DNA of 39,027 nt, from NCBI GenBank assembly GCA_030531905.1, contig JAUNMG010000013.1, positions 1 to 39,027 on the forward strand, written 5' to 3'. Of the stretch, positions 1 to 37,457 are shown piece by piece. The stretch comes from a bacterium (GTDB taxonomy: Bacteria > Bacillota_I > Bacilli_A > RF39 > UBA660). The notes under the pieces were generated by a model. That model had not been told where the DNA came from, made no database searches, and saw nothing but the letters and a program-made list of their open reading frames with translations. Made by a program: the position numbers and the translations under genes. Position 1 is the first letter of the stretch, and each line of letters starts with the position of its first letter.

Positions 1-47
1 GGGCTATACAGAGAAACCCTGTCTCAAAAAACAAACAAACAAACAAT
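1..47 (+). mobile_element. 3' end and A-rich tail of a rodent B1 SINE (host-derived chimera)
   Basis: The first bases match, from memory, the 3' end of the mouse B1 (Alu-like) SINE: a GGGCTAYACAGAGAAACCCTG core followed by TCTC and a CAAA-repeat tail. I recall one difference from the consensus (TATACAG for TACACAG). No bacterial gene covers it. The match fits a host read or chimeric fragment joined to a bacterial contig and points to a mouse or other rodent source. The exact junction is unclear and lies somewhere between about 47 and 70. Confidence 0.8.
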
Positions 48-70
48 ACATTTGTTTGGCAAAAATTGGA

Positions 71-102
71 AAGGAGGTTCAGTTATTTACTAGAATCTCC
101 TT
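71..102 (+). other. Stem-loop enclosing a Shine-Dalgarno-like AAGGAGG
   Basis: Bases 71-80 pair with 93-102 over ten positions (one G-T wobble) around a 12-base loop. The 5' arm holds a perfect AAGGAGG, yet no start codon follows at a usable distance. It could be a spacer hairpin between tail genes or the remnant of a ribosome binding site whose gene was rearranged. It lies close to the chimera junction, so caution is needed. Confidence 0.45.
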
Positions 103-114
103 GTTTAGAATGTA
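81..114. repeat. Inverted repeat A, left copy (partner at 984-1008)
   Basis: The reverse complement of 984-1008 (25 bases) aligns to 81-114 with every base matched. The left copy only carries two insertions: one T, and an 8-base CTCCTTGT that also forms an arm of the 71-102 stem-loop. The pair encloses the first two tail-tip genes. It could be a site for DNA inversion, a long-range RNA stem, or a duplicated spacer in opposite orientation. Confidence 0.55.
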
Positions 115-131
115 TAAGAAAAGAGGTGACT

Positions 132-147
132 GGTACTATTTAGTATC
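132..147. repeat. Inverted repeat B, left copy (partner at 546-560)
   Basis: GGTACTATTTAGTATC here matches the reverse complement of 546-560 at 15 positions with a single one-base gap. The left copy is also nearly self-complementary (7-bp stem, TT loop). A further small hairpin, CATCA/TGATG, follows at 147-161 and reaches the start codon region of the next gene. The repeat pair encloses exactly one gene. Confidence 0.5.
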
Positions 148-158
148 ATCATCTCGTG

Positions 159-542
159 ATGTTTATGCTTAAACTTAATCCAAAATTATTACAAGAGGCA
201 TTTCCAATTAACAAAGTGGAAGTGTTTTTTGATGCAGAAGATCATTCTAATTTTTTAGGATTTACTTGGGAAATGATTTCACAAGGTAGAGTACCTGTAG
301 GGCTTGATAATACTGATAAAGATTTTAATAAAATCGGTAAGACTGGTGGTGGAACGGTTTATGAAAAAGTAAAAATTTCTGCTACTGCCTATGGTGCAAC
401 TAACAGTAATCCTATTTACAATGGGCAATTATTGGTTTCAACCGCAAAAAACACTGGCACTGGAACACAAACATTAACTGATAATGGAATCGATTTTAAA
501 GATCCATATATAGTTATGGCTTTTTGGAAAAGAACAGCATAA
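159..542 (+). CDS. Phage tail-tip / baseplate-type fibre C-terminal protein
   Basis: About 127 residues. It resembles the C-terminal module of phage tail or baseplate fibre proteins: an early segment with GFTWEMISQGRVPVG (the usual form is GGTWEQI followed by a glycine-rich stretch) and a terminal FWKRTA like the WKRTA ends of such proteins. It probably contributes to a receptor-binding tip of the virion. No Shine-Dalgarno sequence precedes any of the possible starts (GTG 156, ATG 159, ATG 165). The ATG at 165 gives an N-terminus (MLKLNPKLL) that aligns loosely with the next two genes. The gene may be a detached C-terminal cassette of a longer fibre gene lying outside the window. The family is recognised by motif only. 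Confidence 0.65.
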   Translation: MFMLKLNPKLLQEAFPINKVEVFFDAEDHSNFLGFTWEMISQGRVPVGLDNTDKDFNKIGKTGGGTVYEKVKISATAYGATNSNPIYNGQLLVSTAKNTGTGTQTLTDNGIDFKDPYIVMAFWKRTA

Positions 543-545
543 CAA

Positions 546-560
546 GATACTAAATATACC
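546..560. repeat. Inverted repeat B, right copy
   Basis: GATACTAAATATACC lies in the 24-base spacer between the first and second tail-tip genes and is the reverse complement of 132-147 with one gap. There is no Shine-Dalgarno sequence in this spacer. Confidence 0.5.
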
Positions 561-566
561 GTTTGT

Positions 567-983
567 ATGCAAATAAATGAGAAATTAATACCAAAATTAA
601 AAAATATAGATGTTAATACACAGAACATTTCAAATATAACTGGTAAAATTTTGTGGACTAATCCTGATCCAACAAAATCAATAACAAGCAATACTAATAT
701 AACCTTATCAAGCTCAAATTATGATTTTTATGAGGTTATATATAGAGGCTCTATTGATCCAAACAATAATGAGAGATTATCTACCGGAAGAATACCTAAA
801 GGAAATAGTACTAGAATTTTTCAAACATATCAATCTTCAACAGGTAATGTTGCTGTCAGAGATAGAAAAATAACATTTGTAGATGATACAACACTTTCAG
901 TTGGAACAGGATTAGCTAACGATCCAGACAATACTTGCATACCATACTATATAATTGGTTATAAAACAGGACCATTTTCTTAG
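567..983 (+). CDS. Phage tail fibre/tip protein, second of three tandem genes
   Basis: 138 residues starting MQINEKLIPKL. The N-terminal seven residues are identical to those of the next gene, and both then contain a YDF-centred beta-rich segment (here NYDFYEVIYRG) of the type seen in short C-terminal tail fibre domains. The end (YYIIGYKTG) also fits such modules. The role would be virion tip or host adsorption. There is no Shine-Dalgarno sequence before the ATG, and an inverted repeat fills the spacer upstream, so expression may depend on translational coupling or on rearrangement. No catalytic motif is seen. Confidence 0.65.
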   Translation: MQINEKLIPKLKNIDVNTQNISNITGKILWTNPDPTKSITSNTNITLSSSNYDFYEVIYRGSIDPNNNERLSTGRIPKGNSTRIFQTYQSSTGNVAVRDRKITFVDDTTLSVGTGLANDPDNTCIPYYIIGYKTGPFS

Positions 984-1008
984 TACATTCTAAATTCTAG
1001 TAATAACT
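984..1008. repeat. Inverted repeat A, right copy
   Basis: The spacer between the second and third tail-tip genes begins with TACATTCTAAATTCTAG and continues to 1008. Its reverse complement is contained in 81-114. It includes a small CTAGT/ACTAG inverted repeat at 997-1010. No Shine-Dalgarno sequence is present. Confidence 0.55.
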
Positions 1009-1016
1009 AGATTATT

Positions 1017-1409
1017 ATGCAAATAAATGAAAAATTAACAAAAAATTTAAGAAAATTAATTGATAATAAGGTAATTGTAGATACATTATTTAATGGTATA
1101 GGAACAAAAGCAACAAATGCAACTGATTTTTTTACTACGGCTATGACTAAGAATCCTTTAGATTATGATTTTGTTGTAATAACACTTTCAAATTCTGGAA
1201 ATCAATATGAAGAGATGAACGTAGTAATGACACCAAAAACTGATACAAATGGTATAGTTGTGTATTTTGCTGCAACAACTCAATATTATGCATATCTAAG
1301 AATTATGTGTGCAGAGAATTCCATTAAACATAGAATTATGGAGGTTAAAACTTGGGGATTAAGTAACGTATATATAAAGCAAGTTTTAGGAATTAAAATA
1401 AGTAATTAA
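1017..1409 (+). CDS. Phage tail fibre/tip protein, third of three tandem genes
   Basis: 130 residues with the same MQINEKL start as the preceding gene, then a different body with a matching LDYDFVVITL segment and an end (YIKQVLGIKIS) typical of beta-structured fibre tips. The pattern of a constant N-terminus with a variable C-terminus suggests paralogous adhesion modules. No Shine-Dalgarno sequence precedes the ATG. The holin gene follows after 20 bases that do contain a good one, so this is the last structural gene before the lysis module. Confidence 0.65.
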   Translation: MQINEKLTKNLRKLIDNKVIVDTLFNGIGTKATNATDFFTTAMTKNPLDYDFVVITLSNSGNQYEEMNVVMTPKTDTNGIVVYFAATTQYYAYLRIMCAENSIKHRIMEVKTWGLSNVYIKQVLGIKISN

Positions 1410-1429
1410 TAAAAGAAAGGAAATAAAAA

Positions 1430-1786
1430 ATGGAACAATTTGTTGAAAAAGTAGTAGGTTTAAACGAACCTAAAACAATATTTATGTTATGTGGGATATT
1501 TGTTTTTACAGATGTCTTAACAGGATACTTAAAGGCGTTTAAAAATAAGAAAGTGAATTCATCAATTTCAAGAGATGGATACATAAAAAAGGTGGGCTGG
1601 GTAATAGCAATATTACTTGGTTTTTTGGTTGATTTGCTTGTAGGAGTAAATTTATTTCTTATTGGTAGTGCAATAGTATGTATTTCTACTGAAGGAATAA
1701 GTGTTTATGAAAATTTGGGAGAAATAGGAATTAATATGCCTTTTAAAAAGTATTTTGAGAAATTAGATCAAAAGGAGAGTGAATAA
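1430..1786 (+). CDS. Phage holin (toxin-secretion/phage-lysis holin type)
   Basis: 118 residues. It resembles the Firmicutes phage holin family with the signature TDVLTGYLKAFKNKKVNSSISRDG near residues 28-51 (read in pieces), three hydrophobic segments, and a C-terminal region with EGISVYENLGEIGINMP. It would form membrane lesions that release the endolysin encoded 100 bases downstream. An AAAGGAAA ribosome binding site lies 7 bases before the ATG. Gene order fibre - holin - small peptide - endolysin is classical for siphovirus prophages. Confidence 0.85.
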   Translation: MEQFVEKVVGLNEPKTIFMLCGIFVFTDVLTGYLKAFKNKKVNSSISRDGYIKKVGWVIAILLGFLVDLLVGVNLFLIGSAIVCISTEGISVYENLGEIGINMPFKKYFEKLDQKESE

Positions 1787-1788
1787 AA

Positions 1789-1881
1789 ATGGCTACAATA
1801 GATAATAGAACAGATGAAGAAATTAATATGATAGCAGGGTTGTCAGGTGAAGAAGATAAAGAAATAGAGGAAGTGATTTAA
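1789..1881 (+). CDS. Small acidic peptide between holin and endolysin
   Basis: 30 residues (MATIDNRTDEEIN... ending EEDKEIEEVI), strongly acidic with no membrane segment. It begins two bases after the holin stop, with AAAGGAGAGTG in the holin 3' end as ribosome binding site, and ends one base before the endolysin start. The tight packing and good ribosome binding site argue that it is translated. The function is unknown; a lysis accessory role is only a guess from position. Confidence 0.55.
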   Translation: MATIDNRTDEEINMIAGLSGEEDKEIEEVI

Positions 1882-1882
1882 T

Positions 1883-2824
1883 ATGCAAAAAGGTCAAAAA
1901 TCAGTTCGTGGAGGTATAGAAGATTTTCTATGTCCTTTCACAGATATGAGGATAACTCAAGGTTCAAACAGTAATTATTCTCATAAAGGTATTATGGCAA
2001 ATGATGTGGCTGGAAAAATAGCTGGAACTAAATATCCTTATTATGCACCTTGTACTTGTAAAGCACTGAAAAAATATAGTGCTACAGGTCAAGTTATGTG
2101 GCAGTCAACAAGTAAAGTAAGATTTTCAAATGGAAGAATAGATTATGCTACTTTTATGACTGCACATGATAATAGTATGGATGTAAAGATAAGCCAAGTT
2201 GTACCTCAAGGTAATCAGCTAGGTAATATGGGAAATAAAGGCTTTTCAAACATGACTGGAGTACATTGCCATATTGAAGTATCACAAAGTGCTGACACAA
2301 GTTGGATTAAAAATCAATATGGAAACTATCATTTTAATAATGAATATGATCTAGATGATTGTTATTTTGTTAATAATACTAATATATTGAATGGCATGGG
2401 TGGTAACTGGAAAACAACTGATAAAGTACCAGTGACTAATCCTCAACCTCAAGGTGCAGACCAAAAACTATATAAAGGCAGCAAAGTTAAATTTGATGGA
2501 ATATTTAAGGTTGATATCCTAAAAAGCCCATTATCAAGTAACTTATTTGGCTGTTGTGCATTAACAGGATGTTCTTTTAATGATTATCAAAAGGAAAAGG
2601 TAAAGCCATTTCACTGGTTGCCAACTGGACCATTTACAGAATGTGATAGTAATGGTAATGCAACATCAGATCAACGATTAATAGGTGGTAGTTCATATGT
2701 TAAAAATAATAATATTTATAATGTAGAAGATATAGATATAAAAAGTAACTCAGCTAAACTTATTGTTGATGGTAGAGTAGTATGGGTATTTAGCAAATAT
2801 TTATACGAAGTAAGTGATAGATAG
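1883..2824 (+). CDS. Phage endolysin with M23-type peptidase domain
   Basis: 313 residues. The N-terminal half (about 20-150) has the layout of M23 / lysostaphin-type zinc peptidases: SHKGIMANDVAG supplies the first His and the Asp, and GVHCHIEVS supplies the HxH of the usual GPHLHFE motif. It should cleave cross-bridges or stem peptides in peptidoglycan. A proline/glutamine linker near residues 183-192 leads to a C-terminal domain (about 195-313) that is probably a cell-wall-binding, SH3-like module. There is no signal peptide, as expected for a holin-dependent endolysin. The stop codon overlaps the GTG start of the next gene by one base. Confidence 0.8.
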   Translation: MQKGQKSVRGGIEDFLCPFTDMRITQGSNSNYSHKGIMANDVAGKIAGTKYPYYAPCTCKALKKYSATGQVMWQSTSKVRFSNGRIDYATFMTAHDNSMDVKISQVVPQGNQLGNMGNKGFSNMTGVHCHIEVSQSADTSWIKNQYGNYHFNNEYDLDDCYFVNNTNILNGMGGNWKTTDKVPVTNPQPQGADQKLYKGSKVKFDGIFKVDILKSPLSSNLFGCCALTGCSFNDYQKEKVKPFHWLPTGPFTECDSNGNATSDQRLIGGSSYVKNNNIYNVEDIDIKSNSAKLIVDGRVVWVFSKYLYEVSDR

Positions 2825-3015
2825 TGTATTCATACGAAATAGAAAGATTATTAAAAATAAAAAATTATCTTATATCATATAGTGATTATTCAAATATAAT
2901 AGCAACAAGTCCACAGATAGATCATGTAAGATATGATAAGAATAATGATATATTTGAACTGAATACAGATGATAGGTATACATTAAAATTTAAAGTAAAA
3001 GTCAAAAATAAATAA
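2824..3015 (+). CDS. Small protein of unknown function, coupled to endolysin
   Basis: 63 residues read from a GTG that shares its first base with the endolysin stop codon, so translation is probably coupled. The sequence is polar and tyrosine/asparagine rich (MYSYEIERLLKIKNYLISYS...), with a KFKVKVKNK basic end and no membrane segment or known motif. As the last gene of the prophage lysis module it may be a late accessory protein. The function is not recognised. Confidence 0.5.
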   Translation: MYSYEIERLLKIKNYLISYSDYSNIIATSPQIDHVRYDKNNDIFELNTDDRYTLKFKVKVKNK

Positions 3016-3018
3016 AAA

Positions 3019-3045
3019 TGCACAATATTATTGAAATGTTGTGCA
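3019..3045 (-). terminator. Possible minus-strand terminator hairpin
   Basis: GCACAA (3020-3025) pairs with TTGTGC (3039-3044). On the minus strand the hairpin is followed by a T-rich run, and on the plus strand only by A-rich sequence, so it would act on leftward transcripts. No leftward gene is evident immediately upstream of it. Confidence 0.35.
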
Positions 3046-3140
3046 AAAAAATTTTGAAATATAGTAAACTTAATTTTTGAATTATATGATTTATATCAAA
3101 AATTAAAATTCACTAGGCGAAAAACAAAAATTCAATTGAA

Positions 3141-3190
3141 AAAAGATACTGAATTTGTCAAAATGGCGATTTGCAGTATCTTTTTTTTAT
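3141..3190 (+). terminator. Rho-independent terminator of the prophage lysis module
   Basis: AAAAGATACTG (3141-3151) pairs perfectly with CAGTATCTTTT (3174-3184), followed by an eight-T run. It closes transcription of the late phage genes. Confidence 0.85.
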
Positions 3191-3222
3191 GCAATAATTT
3201 AGTCACGAAAGGGGGAAATATT

Positions 3223-3393
3223 ATGTTTACAAAAATATTAAATGATAATGAAGTAAATAAATTTAATGAACTTACTGGGATGAAAGTGATGAAAGTATTC
3301 ATAAGTAAAAATAAAAAATACTATTATGCTACTATAGTAGATAAATCACTAAAAGTAAGAATCAGCAAAGAACTAGCTAGTATGTTTATATAG
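3223..3393 (+). CDS. Small basic protein of unknown function
   Basis: 56 residues from ATG 3223, preceded by a very strong AAAGGGGG ribosome binding site. A longer in-frame reading from 3136 would run through the terminator and is rejected. The protein (MFTKILNDNEVNKFNELTG...) is mixed polar with KNKKYYYATIVDK in the middle and no membrane segment. It lies alone between the prophage terminator and the toxin-antitoxin locus. I do not recognise it; a promoter is not obvious. Confidence 0.5.
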   Translation: MFTKILNDNEVNKFNELTGMKVMKVFISKNKKYYYATIVDKSLKVRISKELASMFI

Positions 3394-3496
3394 TTTTAAA
3401 AATATTGAATTGTAAAAAAATGTAATTAAAAATTCAAAAAATGTTGTATTTTTTTATTAATGTGTTAAAATTTAATTGTAGAGAGTTAAAAAAATA

Positions 3497-3532
3497 TTTA
3501 AATAATTTAAAAAGACGTTTAAATTATTTAAA
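3497..3532. repeat. Perfect 15-bp inverted repeat upstream of the antisense RNA promoter
   Basis: TTTAAATAATTTAAA (3497-3511) is the exact reverse complement of 3518-3532, with a 6-base AAGACG centre. It ends 7 bases before the -35 box at 3540. It could be an operator or an AT-rich upstream element. It lacks the T-run of a terminator. Confidence 0.6.
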
Positions 3533-3539
3533 GAAAAAT

Positions 3540-3568
3540 TTGACTTTTAAAAAGAAAATTGTTATAAT
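3540..3568 (+). promoter_or_regulatory. Consensus promoter of the predicted antitoxin RNA
   Basis: TTGACT (3540-3545), a 17-base spacer and TATAAT (3563-3568). This is one of the best promoters in the window, yet no protein gene follows on this strand before the terminator at 3684-3722. That is what an abundant small antisense RNA needs. Confidence 0.8.
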
Positions 3569-3621
3569 ACAGTCATTTCTTAAGAAAAATGTATTTTATG
3601 TATATTTTTACATAAAATAAA

Positions 3622-3662
3622 AAAGAGACATATCTATTTTTCCAGTAGATACTTCTCTGTTC
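3622..3662 (-). terminator. Terminator of the toxin mRNA (minus strand)
   Basis: On the minus strand AGAGAAGTATCTA pairs with TAGATATGTCTCT (a two-base internal mismatch), followed by TTTTTTATTTT. This ends the leftward toxin transcript near 3615-3620. The same bases form part of the inverted repeat complementary to the mRNA 5' end (3871-3912). Confidence 0.65.
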
Positions 3663-3683
3663 AATTAGTTGTTTAATTGATGT

Positions 3684-3722
3684 GAAAAGTACCAATCACT
3701 TGATGAGAGGTACTTTTCTTTT
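3684..3722 (+). terminator. Terminator of the antisense RNA (plus strand)
   Basis: GAAAAGTACC (3684-3693) pairs perfectly with GGTACTTTTC (3709-3718), followed by TTTT. It sits immediately beyond the 3' end of the toxin reading frame, which stops at 3721 on the other strand. Confidence 0.65.
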
Positions 3723-3789
3723 AGTTCTTTTGTCGTAAAGCGACAATACACAATAGAGTAATAAAAGCAAATGCTAATACTAGCTCCAT
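3721..3789 (-). CDS. Type I toxin: 22-aa hydrophobic membrane peptide
   Basis: 22 residues: MELVLAFAFITLLCIV followed by the polar end ALRQKN. It is one short membrane helix with a charged C-terminus, like the holin-like type I toxins of Firmicutes (BsrG/TxpA/Fst class). The ribosome binding site AGAAGGAGA lies at 3805-3797, seven bases before the ATG at 3789. The mRNA should start near 3909 from a minus-strand promoter, giving a ~120-base 5' UTR whose first part is complementary to the mRNA 3' end. A competing 52-codon frame from ATG 3823 overlaps it but reads as a polar, motif-free protein and is less likely. Toxicity is inferred from form and locus architecture, not from a database match. 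Confidence 0.65.
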   Translation of the reverse strand: MELVLAFAFITLLCIVALRQKN

Positions 3790-3870
3790 GTCCAAGTCTC
3801 CTTCTGTGAAGTTGATTACGCATTGAACATCACCTCCATTCTTTTTAATATTGATTTTTAATCATTTATT

Positions 3871-3912
3871 AAATTGAACAGAGGAAGTACCTACAATAGA
3901 TACATCTCATAC
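3871..3912. repeat. Inverted repeat of 3624-3666: complementary 5' end of the toxin mRNA
   Basis: AATTGAACAGAG, then AAGTA.CTA, then ATAGATA..TCTC occur here and again, inverted, at 3624-3666, with one bulge, wobble-compatible substitutions and a 5-base size difference. In the toxin mRNA these are the 5' and 3' ends, so the mRNA can pair end to end. Known type I toxin mRNAs such as hok and AapA1 use comparable 5'-3' pairing to hold full-length mRNA inactive. Confidence 0.65.
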
Positions 3913-3915
3913 TCA

Positions 3916-3944
3916 ACTATACACTATATCAAAAAAAATTACAA
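3916..3944 (-). promoter_or_regulatory. Promoter of the toxin mRNA (minus strand)
   Basis: Read on the minus strand: TTGTAA (3944-3939), 17-base spacer, TATAGT (3921-3916). The start would be near 3909. The -35 box overlaps the stop region of the upstream HNH-type gene, so the toxin has its own promoter. Confidence 0.65.
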
Positions 3945-4403
3945 ATGGTTTTTCCAAAATAATTCTCTAAATTCATCAATTGTCTTATTATAATAATTCA
4001 TAAAGGTAGCCTGTGCTATCTTTTTAAGTTGTATCATTTCCAAAGGATGATCATGTAAGTATCTGTGTTGTTCTTCGGTTATCCATACAAATAGTCCATA
4101 CTGTTCAGATTTAGGTCTATTAGCGACATTTCCAAATATGTGATGTTTCTGACAACCAGTAGTCTTTTTATTAAAATATAGTGTACTAGATGGCATAATA
4201 GATATGTCATTGTAATATCTATTACATTTTCCTTTCTTGGGCCTATATTTATACTCAGTTTTAGCTTGTAGTATTTTGTATTGTTTGTATTCTTTCTTAC
4301 CACATTCCTGATAACAGGAAAATGGTACTTCTTTTTTTAATAGAGTGCAATATCCGTATTTAGTTCCTTTTTTGGTTCTAATTTTATAATATTTACATTT
4401 CAT
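3939..4403 (-). CDS. HNH-type nuclease-like protein with cysteine-rich N-terminus
   Basis: 154 residues from ATG 4403 (MKCKYYKI...). The C-terminal half has KHHIFGNVANRPKSEQYGL, then TEEQHRYLHDHP, matching the layout of phage HNH proteins (HHIF.G..NR..SEKYGL...L...HH...H). The N-terminal part carries spaced cysteines (CKYYK, YCTLLKK, CYQECGKK) that may bind zinc. The role could be a homing or restriction nuclease acting on DNA. The start is uncertain: no Shine-Dalgarno sequence precedes 4403, and an in-frame TTG at 4460 would add 19 residues. An 11-base tandem repeat (ATTACTCCGAA) sits at 4420-4440. Confidence 0.6.
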   Translation of the reverse strand: MKCKYYKIRTKKGTKYGYCTLLKKEVPFSCYQECGKKEYKQYKILQAKTEYKYRPKKGKCNRYYNDISIMPSSTLYFNKKTTGCQKHHIFGNVANRPKSEQYGLFVWITEEQHRYLHDHPLEMIQLKKIAQATFMNYYNKTIDEFRELFWKNHL

Positions 4404-4561
4404 ATTTTTATTAACAGAAATTACTCCGAAATTACTCCGATATGGGTGTAATGAGTGCAATTTTTAGGAGTAAAAAGTAAAAAGATGATGTGAATTAATA
4501 TTGAAAAATAACAATTTAGTTTTATTATTAACCCTTTAGTCGGCACCATTATGATAGGAAA

Positions 4562-4583
4562 CTCGAACTTTTAAAGTATCGAG
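4562..4583. repeat. Short inverted repeat CTCGA...TCGAG
   Basis: CTCGAACTTT and AAAGTATCGAG form a ten-base-pair inverted repeat with one bulged base and almost no loop, in the gene-free stretch 4404-4649. It may be a protein or recombinase binding site. Nothing else in that stretch is recognisable apart from the terminator at 4595. Confidence 0.3.
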
Positions 4584-4594
4584 AGTAATAAATT

Positions 4595-4618
4595 ACTAAC
4601 AGAAATGTTAGTTTTTTT
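4595..4618 (+). terminator. Rho-independent terminator
   Basis: ACTAACA (4595-4601), a GAAA tetraloop, TGTTAGT (4606-4612) and a seven-T run. It lies about 30 bases before the start of a small gene and has no obvious rightward gene before it, so it may act as a leader terminator for 4650-4922. Confidence 0.65.
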
Positions 4619-4649
4619 GTTATTTAAGAAAGAAAGTGAGAGTGATTAT

Positions 4650-4922
4650 ATGTTAACAATAGAAACTAAAGAATTAAATATAAGTGAGAAATTAAAAAAG
4701 AAAGTTGATATGATATGTAAATTTGCTTATGCTAAACCTACATATAAAAATGGTAATATTAGAAATATTAAAGGAACAAATATTGCTTATGTAAAACCTC
4801 ACATAATAACTATTAATAAAATAGATTATTTAATGTTTGATGAGTGTGAAGATATTTATATTAATGGTTATGATAAAAAGATTAAATTTAAAGATTTATT
4901 AGAATATATTAAATCAAACTAA
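4650..4922 (+). CDS. Small protein of unknown function (mobile element)
   Basis: 90 residues from ATG 4650, preceded by GAAAGTGAGAGTG as a weak ribosome binding site. A longer frame from 4605 would start inside the terminator T-run and is rejected. The sequence is lysine/isoleucine rich (MLTIETKELNISEKLKKKVDM... ending KDLLEYIKSN), soluble, with no known motif. It precedes the recombinase leader and may be an accessory gene of the mobile element. Confidence 0.5.
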   Translation: MLTIETKELNISEKLKKKVDMICKFAYAKPTYKNGNIRNIKGTNIAYVKPHIITINKIDYLMFDECEDIYINGYDKKIKFKDLLEYIKSN

Positions 4923-4944
4923 TATTCATTCACTGAATAAGAAA

Positions 4945-4973
4945 TTGACAAATTAAAGATAAAAGTATAATAT
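4945..4973 (+). promoter_or_regulatory. Promoter of the recombinase leader
   Basis: Consensus TTGACA (4945-4950) with TAATAT at 4968-4973 (17-base spacer) or TATAAT at 4966-4971 (15-base spacer). Transcription would start near 4980, about 175 bases before the recombinase. Confidence 0.75.
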
Positions 4974-4981
4974 AGTAAACC

Positions 4982-5012
4982 AATAAAAGCAAGCAGTATC
5001 TAGTCTTTTATT
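4982..5012 (+). promoter_or_regulatory. Leader stem-loop upstream of the leader peptide
   Basis: AATAAAAG (4982-4989) pairs perfectly with CTTTTATT (5005-5012) at the very 5' end of the predicted recombinase transcript. It may be part of an attenuator or protect the transcript end. Confidence 0.5.
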
Positions 5013-5030
5013 AGAAAGAGAGGTACTTCT

Positions 5031-5105
5031 ATGGTTAAAAGTAAACGAAAACATTTAAAAACTTATTATATTAGTATTATTGAGGAGTCAAGAGTATTAG
5101 TTTGA
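5031..5105 (+). CDS. Possible 24-aa leader peptide of the recombinase attenuator
   Basis: ATGGTTAAAAG... encodes 24 residues (MVKSKRKHLKTYYISIIEES then RVLV). A weak GAGAGG ribosome binding site lies about 8 bases upstream. The last third of the frame is the 5' arm of the terminator at 5082-5134. Ribosomes translating it would therefore disrupt the terminator, as in leader-peptide attenuators. It is basic and codes for two adjacent tyrosines. Translation is inferred only from the arrangement. Confidence 0.4.
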   Translation: MVKSKRKHLKTYYISIIEESRVLV

Positions 5106-5134
5106 ACTACTAGTATTTTTGATTCCTCTTTTTT
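5082..5134 (+). terminator. Attenuator-like terminator before the recombinase
   Basis: GAGGAGTCAA (5082-5091) pairs with TTGATTCCTC (5119-5128), one G-T wobble, followed by six T. It lies between the promoter at 4945 and the recombinase start at 5157, so read-through must be controlled for the gene to be expressed. Confidence 0.75.
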
Positions 5135-5138
5135 GTAG

Positions 5139-8262
<3,124 letters not shown>

Positions 8263-8267
8263 AAAGT

Positions 8268-8277
8268 GTGATATAAT
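8268..8277 (+). promoter_or_regulatory. Extended -10 promoter before the metallopeptidase-like gene
   Basis: TGATATAAT, i.e. TG (8269-8270), one base, TATAAT (8272-8277), with no clear -35 box. If used, the mRNA would start near 8284, which rules out the TTG at 8277 and favours a start at 8292 or 8301. Confidence 0.45.
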
Positions 8278-8300
8278 TGATATGTAAGGATGTGGTTGGT

Positions 8301-32755: not shown

Positions 32756-32782
32756 TAAATTAGATATAGGAGAGTGATTACA

Positions 32783-33016
32783 ATGTCAGAAAACAGTATT
32801 TATATCGATGAAAAAACTGGTAATGCTATTTTTGCAAAGAAAAAAGAAAATGGTAGTTATAGTTTCTATGGAACTAGAAAAAATGATGATGGCAGTTTTT
32901 GTATAAACGAGCTTGAACCAATAAATGATATTTTTGACTATATTGAACAAAATGACATAGATGTAAAAATCCTTTCAAAAAAAGATGCAAGTGTAGGTGG
33001 AAAGAATGGAAAGTAA
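32783..33016 (+). CDS. Small protein of unknown function, first gene of a two-gene cassette
   Basis: 77 residues from ATG 32783, with TAGGAGAG eight bases upstream; GTG 32774 in frame is too close to that site. The sequence (MSENSIYIDEKTGNAIFAKK...) is acidic in the middle (NDDGSFCINELEPINDIFDY) with a basic glycine end. It suggests a small beta-alpha domain; there is no membrane segment. It overlaps the next gene by 11 bases, so they are co-translated and probably work together. No family is recognised. Confidence 0.65.
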   Translation: MSENSIYIDEKTGNAIFAKKKENGSYSFYGTRKNDDGSFCINELEPINDIFDYIEQNDIDVKILSKKDASVGGKNGK

Positions 33017-34325
33017 TGATAAAGATTTATATCAAGAATGTGATGATATCGTAGATAATATCCTAAATAATTATGCATCATATTCTAACGATGAAAAATT
33101 AAGAAAACTTTATATTGAAGTTGGAAAACTATTATCTAAAAGTCCTGTTTTCTTTTATGAAAGAGATCCAGAAAAACAAAAGGAAATTTATGATAATTAT
33201 AAAATAATTAAGAATAGAGAAGTTGTTTGTAAAAGTGTTGTTTTTCTATTTTGCAATTTAGCTAAAAAACTTGATTTAAAGTGTCGTCCGATAGAATGTG
33301 ATGATATAGAAAATATTAATTTTAATCACTGGGCGTTAGTATATGAAAATGAAGGTAAAAAATACTTAATTAATCCTATTCCCGATTTTTATAGAGTTCA
33401 AATGAACTCATCTACTAAAAGTTTTTGTCATACAGAAGATTATAAATTTTATCAAGATGAAAAGTTTGATAGTATGAGTGATGAATATTTAAGACAAATA
33501 GATAAATCAATTGGTTATTTAAAAAATGATTGTTATACTGATGAATTATTTGAAAAACTTAGTGAAGAAATGCAATCTGGTTTGGGTACATTTATTGTTA
33601 GAACTAGCAATTATTATCAAGAATATTATCTAAAACTATTAGATTTAATTGATGATAACAAGTTAAGTATTGAAGAGAAAATGACTGAGATTGAAAAAAT
33701 AGATATAAATTATGATAAAAATAAACCAATTATTGAAGAAACATTACAAAAGAAAATAATCAGTCAAAAAATGAAAAAAGCTATTCACGGAGGTGCATAT
33801 AAATCTTTAAGAAATACGGATTCTGATATGAACAAATCCCGTTATGGTGCTGATTTTGTTGGGAGTATGGATGTTACAAATTTAAAAGAAATGAAAAGAG
33901 ATATTTTATTGTATAAATTTAATTATCTTATGAAATGTATTCCTAAATATACGACCGATTTGACTGGTTATATTGAAAATAAAAATTTCATGGATGAACT
34001 AAGTAAAATGTTTTTTAAATCTTCAATGGAAAGAGAATGTATACACAGGCATACTGTTGTTCAAGGAAAGGATGATGGTACGAATAATTATTATTTAATG
34101 TTTGCGATTAAGGATTCAGAGGAAGATAATAGTTATTATTGTTTTTATGATCATAAAAGCAAAACTTTCGAAATGCCTCTTGAACCAATTTCATTTATGA
34201 TGGAACATAAAATGTCACCACTAAAGAATAGTTCTTTAAATGAAAAGATAGCTAATGAATATAGAACTAGTGCATTGGCTGTTAATACACATTTTATACT
34301 TGATAGTGTTGGTATTAAAAAGTAG
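33006..34325 (+). CDS. Transglutaminase-fold-like cysteine enzyme candidate
   Basis: 439 residues from ATG 33006 (AGGTGGAAAG upstream). Residues about 64-130 have the order of a transglutaminase-like Cys-His-Asp triad: REVVCKSVVFLFCNLAKKL (Cys75), FNHWALVYENEGKKYLIN (His108) and PIPDFYR (Asp127). The remaining 300 residues are highly charged, with no signal peptide or membrane helix, and include KKAIHGGAYKSLRN near 260 and an HRHTVVQGKDDG segment near 345. It could be a protease, a cross-linking or a deamidating enzyme, or a cytoplasmic effector. The triad assignment is by eye; spacing is plausible. Confidence 0.6.
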   Translation: MESNDKDLYQECDDIVDNILNNYASYSNDEKLRKLYIEVGKLLSKSPVFFYERDPEKQKEIYDNYKIIKNREVVCKSVVFLFCNLAKKLDLKCRPIECDDIENINFNHWALVYENEGKKYLINPIPDFYRVQMNSSTKSFCHTEDYKFYQDEKFDSMSDEYLRQIDKSIGYLKNDCYTDELFEKLSEEMQSGLGTFIVRTSNYYQEYYLKLLDLIDDNKLSIEEKMTEIEKIDINYDKNKPIIEETLQKKIISQKMKKAIHGGAYKSLRNTDSDMNKSRYGADFVGSMDVTNLKEMKRDILLYKFNYLMKCIPKYTTDLTGYIENKNFMDELSKMFFKSSMERECIHRHTVVQGKDDGTNNYYLMFAIKDSEEDNSYYCFYDHKSKTFEMPLEPISFMMEHKMSPLKNSSLNEKIANEYRTSALAVNTHFILDSVGIKK

Positions 34326-34384: not shown

Positions 34385-35143
34385 ATGATGAAGGCCTTAA
34401 TTACAGGAGCAAGTAGTGGAATTGGACTTGAATGTGCTAAATATTTAGCTAGTAAGAAAATAGAAGTTATTTTAGTTGCAAGAGATAGAGAAAAGTTAGA
34501 AACTATTCAAAAGACTTTACCAACAAAAACAACTATAATTGTAATGGATTTAAGTAATGAACAAAAGGTTAAAGAACTATGTGCACTTCTTAAGAATGAA
34601 TCTATAGATATTTTAATAAATAACGCTGGATTCGGTTCATTTGGTAATTTTATAGAAACAGAATTAAACAGAGATTTAGAGATGATTGATACTAATATAA
34701 AAGCTGTTCATATCTTAACTAAATATATTTTAAAAACAATGAAATTAAGAAATAGTGGTTATATTCTTAATGTTTCTTCATCAGCATCTTTTATGCCTGG
34801 TGGACCATTAATGAGTACATATTATGCTACTAAATCATATGTTTCAAGTTTAACTAAAGCAATTAATTATGAACTAAAAAAAGAAAAAAGTAAAGTAGTT
34901 GTTTCAGTTTTATGTCCTGGACCAGTTGATACTAATTTTAATAATGTAGCAGGAGTAAAGTTCGGAGTTAAACCACTATCTGCAAAGTTTGTCGCAAGAT
35001 ATGCAATTGATGAAATGTTAGATAAACATAAAATGCTTATTATTCCAGGTAAGAAAATGAAATTAGCAAAATTTTTCAGTAGATTTGTATCAGAAAAATT
35101 TTTATTAAAAATAACTTATAAAATACAAAGAAATAAGAAATAG
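34385..35143 (+). CDS. Short-chain dehydrogenase/reductase
   Basis: 252 residues (251 if the second ATG at 34388 is used). TGASSGIG at about 8-15 binds the dinucleotide, INNAGFG follows near 83, and the catalytic set is SSSASF (Ser) with YYATKSY (Tyr-x3-Lys) near 150. CPGPVDTNF is the usual post-catalytic loop. It resembles YqjQ/DltE-type classical SDRs that reduce or oxidise small alcohols or acyl groups; the substrate is unknown. It leads the operon containing the ABC-like genes. Confidence 0.9.
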   Translation: MMKALITGASSGIGLECAKYLASKKIEVILVARDREKLETIQKTLPTKTTIIVMDLSNEQKVKELCALLKNESIDILINNAGFGSFGNFIETELNRDLEMIDTNIKAVHILTKYILKTMKLRNSGYILNVSSSASFMPGGPLMSTYYATKSYVSSLTKAINYELKKEKSKVVVSVLCPGPVDTNFNNVAGVKFGVKPLSAKFVARYAIDEMLDKHKMLIIPGKKMKLAKFFSRFVSEKFLLKITYKIQRNKK

Positions 35144-35155
35144 GAATGATACTAC

Positions 35156-35944
35156 ATGAATGAAGTACTACAAGTAAAAAATTTAAATTATAAAGCCTTG
35201 TTTAAAGACTTAAACCTAACTATTTATGAAAATACCATAAACTTAATTACAGGTTCTAATAATTGTGGTAAAACGACATTTATCAAAATATTAAGTGGTT
35301 TAATTGATACTGAAAAGTCTGTTTTTTATCAAAAAAAAGATATAAGTAAGTTAAAATCCAAGGAGTTAGCGACTACTTTTTCACAAGTGATCTTTACTAA
35401 TAATTTTAATTTTCATTTTTTAAATTTAGATCAAGAAATTCTTTTTTATTTAGATAAAACTGATTTATCTGTTTCTGAAAAAAAGATGAAATATAGACAT
35501 TTGGTAAAACTATTTGACTTGGAAATGTTTTTATATGAAGATATAAATAGATTAGACTATTATACAAAAATTAAAATTTTAGTTTTACTTGCGACTATAT
35601 CTTCTCCCAAAATTCTCTTTTTAGATAATGTATTAGACAATCTAGAAGAAAAAGAAGGATTAGAAATTATTAATACTTTGAAAAAAATAGGTGGAATGAC
35701 TGTTATTATAAGTTCAAGTAGTCTTAATTTGGCTCTTAGTTGTGATTATATTCATGTCTTAAGTAAATCTAATTTTATTTTATCCGATACTACTATGGAA
35801 GTGTTGAAAGAAGACAGCCTTCTAAATAAAATTGGTTTAACTCTACCATTTATGGTTGATTTATCACTTAAATTAAAATACTATGATTTAATAGATGATG
35901 TTGAACTTGATATGAATAGGATGGTTGATAAATTATGGAAATAA
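35156..35944 (+). CDS. Degenerate ECF-type ATPase, EcfA1-like
   Basis: 262 residues in the chromosomal position of ecfA1. Walker A is nearly kept (GSNNCGKTT, 33-41, Asn for the second Gly) and a Q-loop-like FSQVIF follows. The ABC signature LSGGQ is replaced by LDYYTK, Walker B reads ILFLDNVLDN with Asn where the catalytic Glu belongs, and the switch-loop His is absent (VIISSSSL). The normal role is energising vitamin uptake by ECF transporters. This copy may bind but is unlikely to hydrolyse ATP. It overlaps the next gene by 10 bases. No EcfT gene follows. Confidence 0.75.
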   Translation: MNEVLQVKNLNYKALFKDLNLTIYENTINLITGSNNCGKTTFIKILSGLIDTEKSVFYQKKDISKLKSKELATTFSQVIFTNNFNFHFLNLDQEILFYLDKTDLSVSEKKMKYRHLVKLFDLEMFLYEDINRLDYYTKIKILVLLATISSPKILFLDNVLDNLEEKEGLEIINTLKKIGGMTVIISSSSLNLALSCDYIHVLSKSNFILSDTTMEVLKEDSLLNKIGLTLPFMVDLSLKLKYYDLIDDVELDMNRMVDKLWK

Positions 35945-36699
35945 CTTTTGAAAGTAAATTTAAATTAAAAAGTAATCAAATAATTGGGCTTATAGATAAG
36001 AATCGATATTTTATCAATTATTTAGAAAAAATAGGTTTTACAAAGAATAATATTGTTGTTGATAAAAAGAAAGTATTAATAAAAGAACTTGGTAGCTTTA
36101 AAAAGAAAATAAGTATTATAAACAATTATTTAAATGATACTTTAGATCTAACTGTGTATCAACATATGAAATATATTATTTTTACAGATATGTTAGATTT
36201 GAAAAATTACAAGAAAAAAATTTATGACTCTTTAAAAATTATTGGTTATCAAGAAAGTTATTTAGATAAGAAAATAAATTCTTTATCTAAAACTGAGAAA
36301 CAATGGATAAGTTTTGCGATAGGATTGCTTTCTAATCCTGATATGATTGTTTTAGATAACTTTTTTAAATCATTTGATTTGAAAAATACTAAGAAGATGA
36401 TGAGACTTTTAACACAATTAACAGAACAATATAATAAGATTGTTGTTATTTATGAAAATAGTTCTGATATTATTTATTCTTTATCTAAATATACTTTTAT
36501 TATAAAAAACAGTGAAGTTTTAATAGAAGGCGATACTAAAGATATATTTAGTAATAACATGAACTATTTATTAACTAATGGTGTAGAAATACCTAAAACG
36601 GTAGAATTTTCTTATCTAGTAAATGAAAAGAAAAAAGTAAGATTAGGATACTTTAAGGATGTTAGGGATTTAATAAAAGATATATATAAAAAAGTTTAG
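35935..36699 (+). CDS. Degenerate ECF-type ATPase, EcfA2-like, without Walker A
   Basis: 254 residues in the ecfA2 position. The P-loop region reads GLIDKNRYFINYL instead of GxNGSGKST, so no nucleotide-binding Lys-Ser/Thr remains. The signature segment is SLSKTEKQW (partly kept), Walker B is DMIVLDNFFKSFD with Asn for Glu, and the switch region VVIYENSSD lacks His. Length and secondary-structure pattern are those of an ABC ATPase, so the frame is under selection rather than being a pseudogene. It could be a structural or regulatory partner of the preceding protein. Confidence 0.75.
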   Translation: MEITFESKFKLKSNQIIGLIDKNRYFINYLEKIGFTKNNIVVDKKKVLIKELGSFKKKISIINNYLNDTLDLTVYQHMKYIIFTDMLDLKNYKKKIYDSLKIIGYQESYLDKKINSLSKTEKQWISFAIGLLSNPDMIVLDNFFKSFDLKNTKKMMRLLTQLTEQYNKIVVIYENSSDIIYSLSKYTFIIKNSEVLIEGDTKDIFSNNMNYLLTNGVEIPKTVEFSYLVNEKKKVRLGYFKDVRDLIKDIYKKV

Positions 36700-36707
36700 G
36701 TGATAAA

Positions 36708-37457
36708 ATGAGATTTTTAATATGTTTTTCATATGATGGTTCTAATTATTCTGGTTATCAGATACAACCAGGATTAAATACAATTCAACAGTGTTTAGAA
36801 GATGCAGTATATAAAGTTAATAATAGTATTAAAAGAAGTGTTCATTCATCAGGAAGGACAGATAAACATGTTCATGCTTTAAGACAACATGCTCATGTTG
36901 ACTTAGATATTGATATAACTCCTAAAAAATTAAAAAGAGCTTTAAATAGTAATTTGCCCGATGATATTCATGTTATTGATGTATTAGAAGTATCAGATGA
37001 ATTTCATGCTAGATACAACGTTTCTTCTAAAGAATATAAATATTATTTGAATATGGGTGAATATAATCCAATTGAAAGAAATTATGTTTTTCAATATAAT
37101 TATGATCTTGATGTAGAAAGAATGAAGGATGCTATAAAGGTATTTTTAGGGGAACATGATTTTAGAGCTTTTGTTACTGATAATAAAGAGAAAGAAAATT
37201 GTGTAAGAACCATTACAACTGCTGATATTGATATTTTACCTGATAAAAAAATTGTTTTCACTTTTAAAGGAACTGGTTTTTTACGTTATCAAGTAAGAAA
37301 TATGGTGGGTATTTTAATTAAAGTTGGAGAAGGAAAAATATCCACAGAAGATGTGGAAAAAATATTGTTGAGTAAAGAAAGAGGCTCTTTATCAAAAACA
37401 GCACCAGCTAATGGTCTATATTTAGTTGATGTTAAATATAATAATATTGAATTTTAG
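36708..37457 (+). CDS. truA: tRNA pseudouridine synthase A
   Basis: 249 residues. FLICFSYDGSNYSGYQ opens the enzyme, SSGRTDKHVHA holds the catalytic Asp, and FHARYNVSSKEYKYYLN, then GTGFLRYQVRNMVG are conserved. It makes pseudouridine at positions 38-40 of tRNA anticodon stems. It follows the EcfA2-like gene by eight bases with an AGGTG ribosome binding site, the normal place after ecfT, which is missing. Confidence 0.97.
   Translation: MRFLICFSYDGSNYSGYQIQPGLNTIQQCLEDAVYKVNNSIKRSVHSSGRTDKHVHALRQHAHVDLDIDITPKKLKRALNSNLPDDIHVIDVLEVSDEFHARYNVSSKEYKYYLNMGEYNPIERNYVFQYNYDLDVERMKDAIKVFLGEHDFRAFVTDNKEKENCVRTITTADIDILPDKKIVFTFKGTGFLRYQVRNMVGILIKVGEGKISTEDVEKILLSKERGSLSKTAPANGLYLVDVKYNNIEF

Follow-up and report, generated by a model that had tools for sequence, protein, structure and literature searches.

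The window analyzed here, a 39,027-nt stretch of DNA, is part of a 1.36-Mb draft genome (92% complete; 3% contamination). Its last part carries, in order, a ribosomal protein/rpoA operon ending with rplQ, two uncharacterized ORFs, a short-chain dehydrogenase (SDR) gene, an ecfA1-like gene (positions 35156 to 35944; 262 aa), an ecfA2-like gene (35935 to 36699; 254 aa), the tRNA pseudouridine(38-40) synthase gene truA (36708 to 37457), rplM, and rpsI; the ecfA-like genes, assigned from the ORF list, NCBIfam models, AF2 models, and Foldseek, lie on the forward strand together with truA. The two ATPase frames (here called A1 and A2) are both open and overlap, the ATG of A2 lying inside the final codons of A1 (TTATGGAAATAA). 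The usual place of ecfT is between ecfA2 and truA, and since truA starts 8 bp after A2, ecfT cannot fit there. All seven further genus members that have the locus share this EcfT-less arrangement. An assembly or contamination artifact, to which the draft state and the contamination level of the genome might point, is scarcely credible for an arrangement that recurs in these seven genomes and in dozens of other genera.

The SDR gene (34385 to 35143), between the rplQ region and ecfA1, holds this position in many relatives, among them some from which the ecfA pair has been deleted. The two ORFs between rplQ and the SDR gene (32774 to 34325; 80 and 442 aa) gave no confident family match; similar ORF pairs occupy the same place in two members of the genus (G003 and G007) and not in others. 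Upstream of the ribosomal operon, positions 1 to 8300, read by eye, contain phage-like ORFs and an apparent mobile element, with a large serine recombinase ORF (5148 to 7025) and a mobilization/relaxase-like ORF (7006 to 8262). In two genomes of the same class (G027 and G039), TGA occurs inside conserved genes, a feature that points to Bacilli with the Mollicutes included.

ECF ATPases are the motors of micronutrient importers. By sequence and by fold (i.e., an NBD followed by a C-terminal domain), A1 and A2 both belong with EcfA. The best ECF models in NCBIfam were ECF_ATPase_1 for A1 (79 bits; cutoff, 315) and ECF_ATPase_2 for A2 (68 bits; cutoff, 330), with scores far below the cutoffs. The AF2 models were confident, complete ECF ATPase folds (pLDDT, 92.3 for A1 and 91.1 for A2), and their top Foldseek matches were CbiO/EcfA proteins of ECF transporters, over the full length. 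PADLOC matches were rejected as generic ATPase similarity. Neither subunit carries the full EcfA motif set (i.e., Walker A, signature, catalytic Glu, and switch His); what is left is Walker A of A1, the Walker B Asp of both proteins, and the LSxxE of A2. In A1, Walker A is intact (GSNNCGKTT, residues 33 to 41; 35252 to 35278), the signature position is degenerate (LDYYTK, residues 133 to 138; 35552 to 35569), the Walker B Asp157 is followed by Asn158 in place of the catalytic Glu (35624 to 35629), and the switch His is replaced by Ser. The C-terminal domain of A1 (residues 219 to 262; 35810 to 35941), which contains LPFMVDLSLKLKYY..NRMVDKLWK, is nearly equally conserved with and without EcfT. 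In A2, Walker A is absent and a signature remnant persists (LSKTE, residues 117 to 121; 36283 to 36297), of which L117 and S118 are invariant and E121 is nearly invariant in a 23-sequence family set. The Walker B Asp141 of A2 is likewise followed by Asn, at position 142 (36355 to 36360), the switch His is replaced by Asn, and the C-terminal domain (residues 209 to 254; 36559 to 36696), ending in KDVRDLIKDIYKKV, is conserved across the family.

We searched for transporter partners in the same genome and its relatives. In the window's own genome, the Pfam EcfT model (PF02361) had a sole, weak match (E value, 0.07), which was rejected as an EcfT since the frame encodes an MgtC-like protein, and a profile built from the family's own EcfT sequences matched nothing. 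No second ecfA pair was found in this genome, in which the remaining ABC matches were weak and generic. Nor was there any S component of the three families searched (PF12822, PF07155, and PF02632), so that the genome yielded neither an EcfT nor an S component of these families to make up a group II ECF transporter. No convincing S component was found in EcfT-less relatives either. In 22 EcfT-less genomes, the family profile (E value, 0.1) detected no EcfT elsewhere, save weak matches in an incomplete genome (G006) that lie in long unrelated frames. No description of EcfA pairs lacking EcfT turned up in the open-access literature. The sequence-only reading of the locus had named the loss of the catalytic Glu and the switch His from both ATPases, of Walker A from the second, and of the signature from the first, together with the absence of ecfT; all of these hold, and neither a second ecfA/ecfT set in the genome nor an EcfT that could pair with the ATPases in these relatives came to light.

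The family comprises more than 160 genera in the genome set used, with genome sizes of about 0.4 to 1.8 Mb. An even draw of 145 genomes yielded truA in 137, and the region upstream of truA was examined in 139 genomes, with extra members of the genus included. Both ATPase genes were present as open frames in 127 of the 139 genomes, EcfA1 alone in none, EcfA2 alone in one (G141, with EcfT), and neither in 11 (one of them at a contig edge). An EcfA1 match in G141 was rejected as an unrelated exporter-type ABC protein, and this genome was therefore counted as having EcfA2 only. By the family profile, an EcfT-like gene was present in 53 genomes. EcfT was gone in 67 others, where ecfA2 and truA often lie only about 10 bp apart or overlap slightly. 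In nine genomes, including near sisters of the genus, an open frame of about 190 to 230 aa with four or five TM segments occupies the place of ecfT and is not recognized by the EcfT profile. Frames of this kind, which the profile barely or no longer matches, were noted in G022, G079, G082, G114, G125, G132, G140, G180, G264, and G016; these diverged, shortened membrane proteins adjoin degenerate ATPases. The Pfam EcfT model scored above its cutoff in 47 of the 145 whole genomes, and the strong matches adjoin truA. Stops or random gene loss in relatives, named beforehand as evidence against a retained role, were not seen: all 67 EcfT-less pairs consist of single open frames without stops or splits, and the two genes were not lost one by one.

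The ATG of A2 lies within A1, at position -7, in at least 94 of 117 genomes. In three genomes (G049, G088, and G122), a clean deletion has removed the pair, and truA still follows the SDR gene. The EcfA1 C-terminal domain was not found in seven other genomes in which truA has moved, nor in six (G102, G109, G150, G153, G158, and G175) without a truA match at an E value of 1e-18, a threshold that may miss diverged copies. The resulting association between the pair and truA (127/2 versus 10/6; P = 1.7e-5) is uncorrected for shared ancestry. The pair and truA thus tend to disappear together, which could be an effect of the locus or a functional link. Since both genes have been lost in some relatives, the function of the pair is dispensable in some backgrounds.

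Motifs were tallied for 67 EcfT-less and 50 EcfT-positive genomes, leaving out G141 and G151 (which has runs of N); these counts are inflated by shared ancestry, and Fisher P values derived from them do not amount to independent evidence. Walker A of A1 (GK[ST]) was kept in 58/67 EcfT-less versus 45/50 EcfT-positive genomes and the signature Ser of A2 in 59/67 versus 45/50, while Walker A of A2 was kept in 7/67 versus 42/50. The catalytic Glu was present in 4/67 versus 34/50 genomes for A1 and in 16/67 versus 42/50 for A2, and the switch His of A1 in 1/67 versus 26/50. A full consensus site remained in 1 EcfT-less genome of the 67, compared with 38 of the 50 EcfT-positive ones. Most EcfT-less genomes retain the motif pattern of the putative composite site (A1 Walker A with A2 LSxxE); its signature glycines are mostly lost. 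In EcfT-less genomes and those with a relic membrane frame, the replacement for the catalytic Glu of A1 is Asp or Asn 67 times out of 72 (D and N together make up 15% of the sequence), and the Walker B Asp is retained in 69/76. Such a combination is what would be expected of a site that holds Mg-ATP and does not hydrolyze it.

The loss of conservation that accompanies the absence of EcfT is unevenly distributed. In each protein, the Q-loop region has lost 1.4 bits, compared with only 0.18 and 0.33 bits for the C-terminal domains (P = 1.7e-10 and 6.5e-7). We take the Q-loop region to be the groove for the EcfT coupling helices and the C-terminal domains to be the contact of the ATPase dimer. 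These results bear on whether the pair might still drive an ECF transporter, with a highly diverged EcfT encoded elsewhere and the ATPases acting as a slow or binding-driven motor. The shortened membrane frames in the place of ecfT in nine relatives, near sisters of the genus among them, would suit such a transporter, and a genome that is 92% complete could hide a component. We nevertheless doubt it, given that neither Pfam nor the family profile found an EcfT in the EcfT-less genomes tested, that S components are likewise missing from the searches described above, and that the presumed holder of the coupling helices has lost more conservation than any other part.

Purifying selection acts on both genes. 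For the eight genomes of the genus, omega under GY+F3X4 was 0.052 (N part) and 0.034 (C part) for A1, 0.025 and 0.042 for the corresponding parts of A2, and 0.023 for truA (MGK estimates, in the same order: 0.124, 0.090, 0.115, 0.073, and 0.074), and fixing omega at 1 worsened the fit of the four ATPase partitions by 234, 114, 251, and 65 log-likelihood units. Because synonymous sites are saturated in this set, less saturated EcfT-less pairs of genomes were also considered; they gave values of 0.25 and 0.23 (G046/G184), 0.24 and 0.13 (G042/G181), and 0.34 and 0.26 (G001/G005). EcfT-positive pairs (G009/G170, G011/G172, and G045/G183) gave 0.08 to 0.20, and a more distant EcfT-positive pair with degenerate motifs (G010/G171) gave 0.35 and 0.22. 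Selection on EcfT-less pairs is therefore relaxed about two- to threefold relative to EcfT-positive ones, yet clearly purifying (omega, 0.03 to 0.12 within the genus and 0.13 to 0.34 in the less saturated pairs). The pair shows neither the stops and frameshifts nor the neutral evolution of pseudogenes. One could still regard the genes as slowly decaying relics, left behind when ECF transport was lost and not yet deleted; the weaker selection relative to EcfT-positive relatives, the shortening of some proteins to 155 to 200 aa, and the loss of both genes from some genomes are in line with this. We consider it unlikely, because every partition is under purifying selection, none of the 67 EcfT-less pairs has a split frame, the pair persists at deep divergence in many genera with EcfA1 never found alone, the C-terminal domains are almost as conserved as in EcfT-positive genomes, and the catalytic Glu gives way nearly always to Asp or Asn.

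The same selection data speak to the possibility that the frames are kept merely for translational coupling to truA and the ribosomal genes that follow, with an irrelevant protein sequence. Coupling would account for the A2 start inside A1 in most genomes, for the distance of about 10 bp or less between A2 and truA in many EcfT-less genomes, and for the nearly constant absence of the pair where truA has moved or is missing. The extreme conservation of Trp261-Lys262 in A1 and Met1-Glu2 in A2 is in part due to the gene overlap. Coupling requires, however, neither conserved residues far from the gene junctions (P231, S237, and Y243 in A1; P220 and F225 in A2) nor omega values below 0.35; some genomes retain the pair despite gaps of 40 to 130 bp to truA, and in the three genomes without the pair, truA is still in place. 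We thus judge this explanation to be improbable.

Some pairs are much reduced. In five genomes (G015, G110, G067, G057, and G128), A1 is only 155 to 171 aa from stop to stop, with the P-loop and the helical domain mostly gone (the short A1 of G057 still has GKS); what persists is the part from Walker B onward, together with the C-terminal domain. Retention across all lineages thus cannot be explained by A1 binding ATP, whereas paired C-terminal halves could account for it. The description of the ATPases as full-length, coupled frames thus fits the window (262 and 254 aa, overlapping) and fails for these smallest pairs. They likewise limit the proposal of one shared site built from A1 Walker A and A2 LSxxE, whose two elements are preferentially kept across EcfT-less genomes (58/67 and 59/67, compared with 7/67 for A2 Walker A).

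A tree was built from A1 and A2 together with the start of TruA. Parsimony places 10 to 14 changes of the EcfT state on it, an approximate count, since the proteins at issue themselves contribute to the tree and some of its branches are long. At least six changes are forced by the starred branches, and on this tree EcfT was lost at least six times. Degenerate sites already occur in several EcfT-positive sisters (e.g., G016, G118, and G189, as well as a clade made up of G054, G080, G092, G096, and G099). Motif decay therefore did not simply follow EcfT loss, which is not necessarily its trigger; hydrolysis seems to have decayed before EcfT was lost or along with it. A test of motif loss against EcfT loss on independent pairs was not significant, with too few informative pairs because sisters already shared the state. 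The EcfT-positive clade of G054 (L200, L185, L194, L183, and L178, respectively) shows the mirror-image asymmetry: its A1 has lost the P-loop, whereas its A2 still has the lysine of Walker A and, for the most part, the catalytic Glu. This motif pattern suggests a one-site ECF motor.

Selection keeps the pair throughout the family despite the loss of its membrane partner and of ATP chemistry, and the job it does is therefore probably not transport. The absence of stops and the purifying selection are in line with the putative new role that had been proposed from the intact frames. On balance, the former ECF importer ATPases probably form a separate, non-transport EcfA1-EcfA2 heterodimer, likely soluble and usually with one nonhydrolyzing ATP site. 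A1 and A2 would still pair via their C-terminal domains. In most lineages, including that of the window, the composite site of A1 Walker A and A2 LSxxE may bind ATP without turnover, and this ATP would serve as structural glue or as a sensor instead of fuel. In the smallest lineages, the ATP site would be gone as well and the paired C-terminal halves alone would do the job; since these versions have no ATP site, the paired halves appear to be the retained core. A point against the heterodimer is that 9/67 EcfT-less genomes have no A1 Walker A. Pure relic decay, pure translational coupling, and a hidden transporter would each account for some of the observations, and all three rank below the heterodimer.

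Given its linkage to truA, a candidate role for this heterodimer lies in tRNA modification or in translation. More tentatively, we suggest that an importer motor may have been repurposed several times within one family into a small soluble pseudo-ATPase heterodimer tied to the truA/ribosomal protein operon (e.g., as a partner that senses ATP or serves as a scaffold in translation or in tRNA modification), the minimal form of which would be two C-terminal halves. The retention of a motor pair after the loss of both membrane partner and hydrolysis suggests a second function, which may have arisen here or may have gone unnoticed in ordinary ECF modules, and the EcfT-positive, relic, and EcfT-less genomes provide a series in which such a function can be tested directly. 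For annotation, vitamin uptake should not be concluded from the presence of an ecfA pair.

Soluble ABC proteins (i.e., ABC-F and SMC/RecN) share ABC ATPase descent and a non-transport role with the proposed heterodimer, but they hydrolyze ATP and have other domain architectures, whereas the window pair descends from EcfA. With group II EcfA1/EcfA2 (CbiO), the pair has in common the gene order beside truA, the overlapping genes, the whole fold including the C-terminal domain, and the match to TIGR04520/TIGR04521; it differs in the absence of EcfT, of any S component found, of the catalytic Glu, of the switch His, and of one Walker A, and in scores far below the cutoffs. ECF structures show the EcfT coupling helices anchored in grooves on EcfA and EcfA' (PMC10368641), and an ECF module with a double E-to-Q substitution (2EQ) binds ATP and closes without hydrolysis (PDB 8BMS; PMC10368641). 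The replacement of the catalytic Glu in both ATPases is common to the 2EQ module and the window pair, although the former is engineered and bound to EcfT, with ATP in both subunits engaging both signature motifs. Among the marks of degenerate sites in human ABC proteins, Glu-to-Asp replacement ranks second in frequency, and ATP has been proposed to act there as a permanent glue (PMC7756269). Heterodimeric ABC exporters with such sites (e.g., TAP, ABCC1, and CFTR) still have their membrane domains and a second site that is active, whereas the window pair has no consensus site and its membrane subunit is gone; what the two have in common is asymmetric motif loss, Glu-to-Asp replacement, signature changes, and the proposed use of ATP as glue (PMC7756269).
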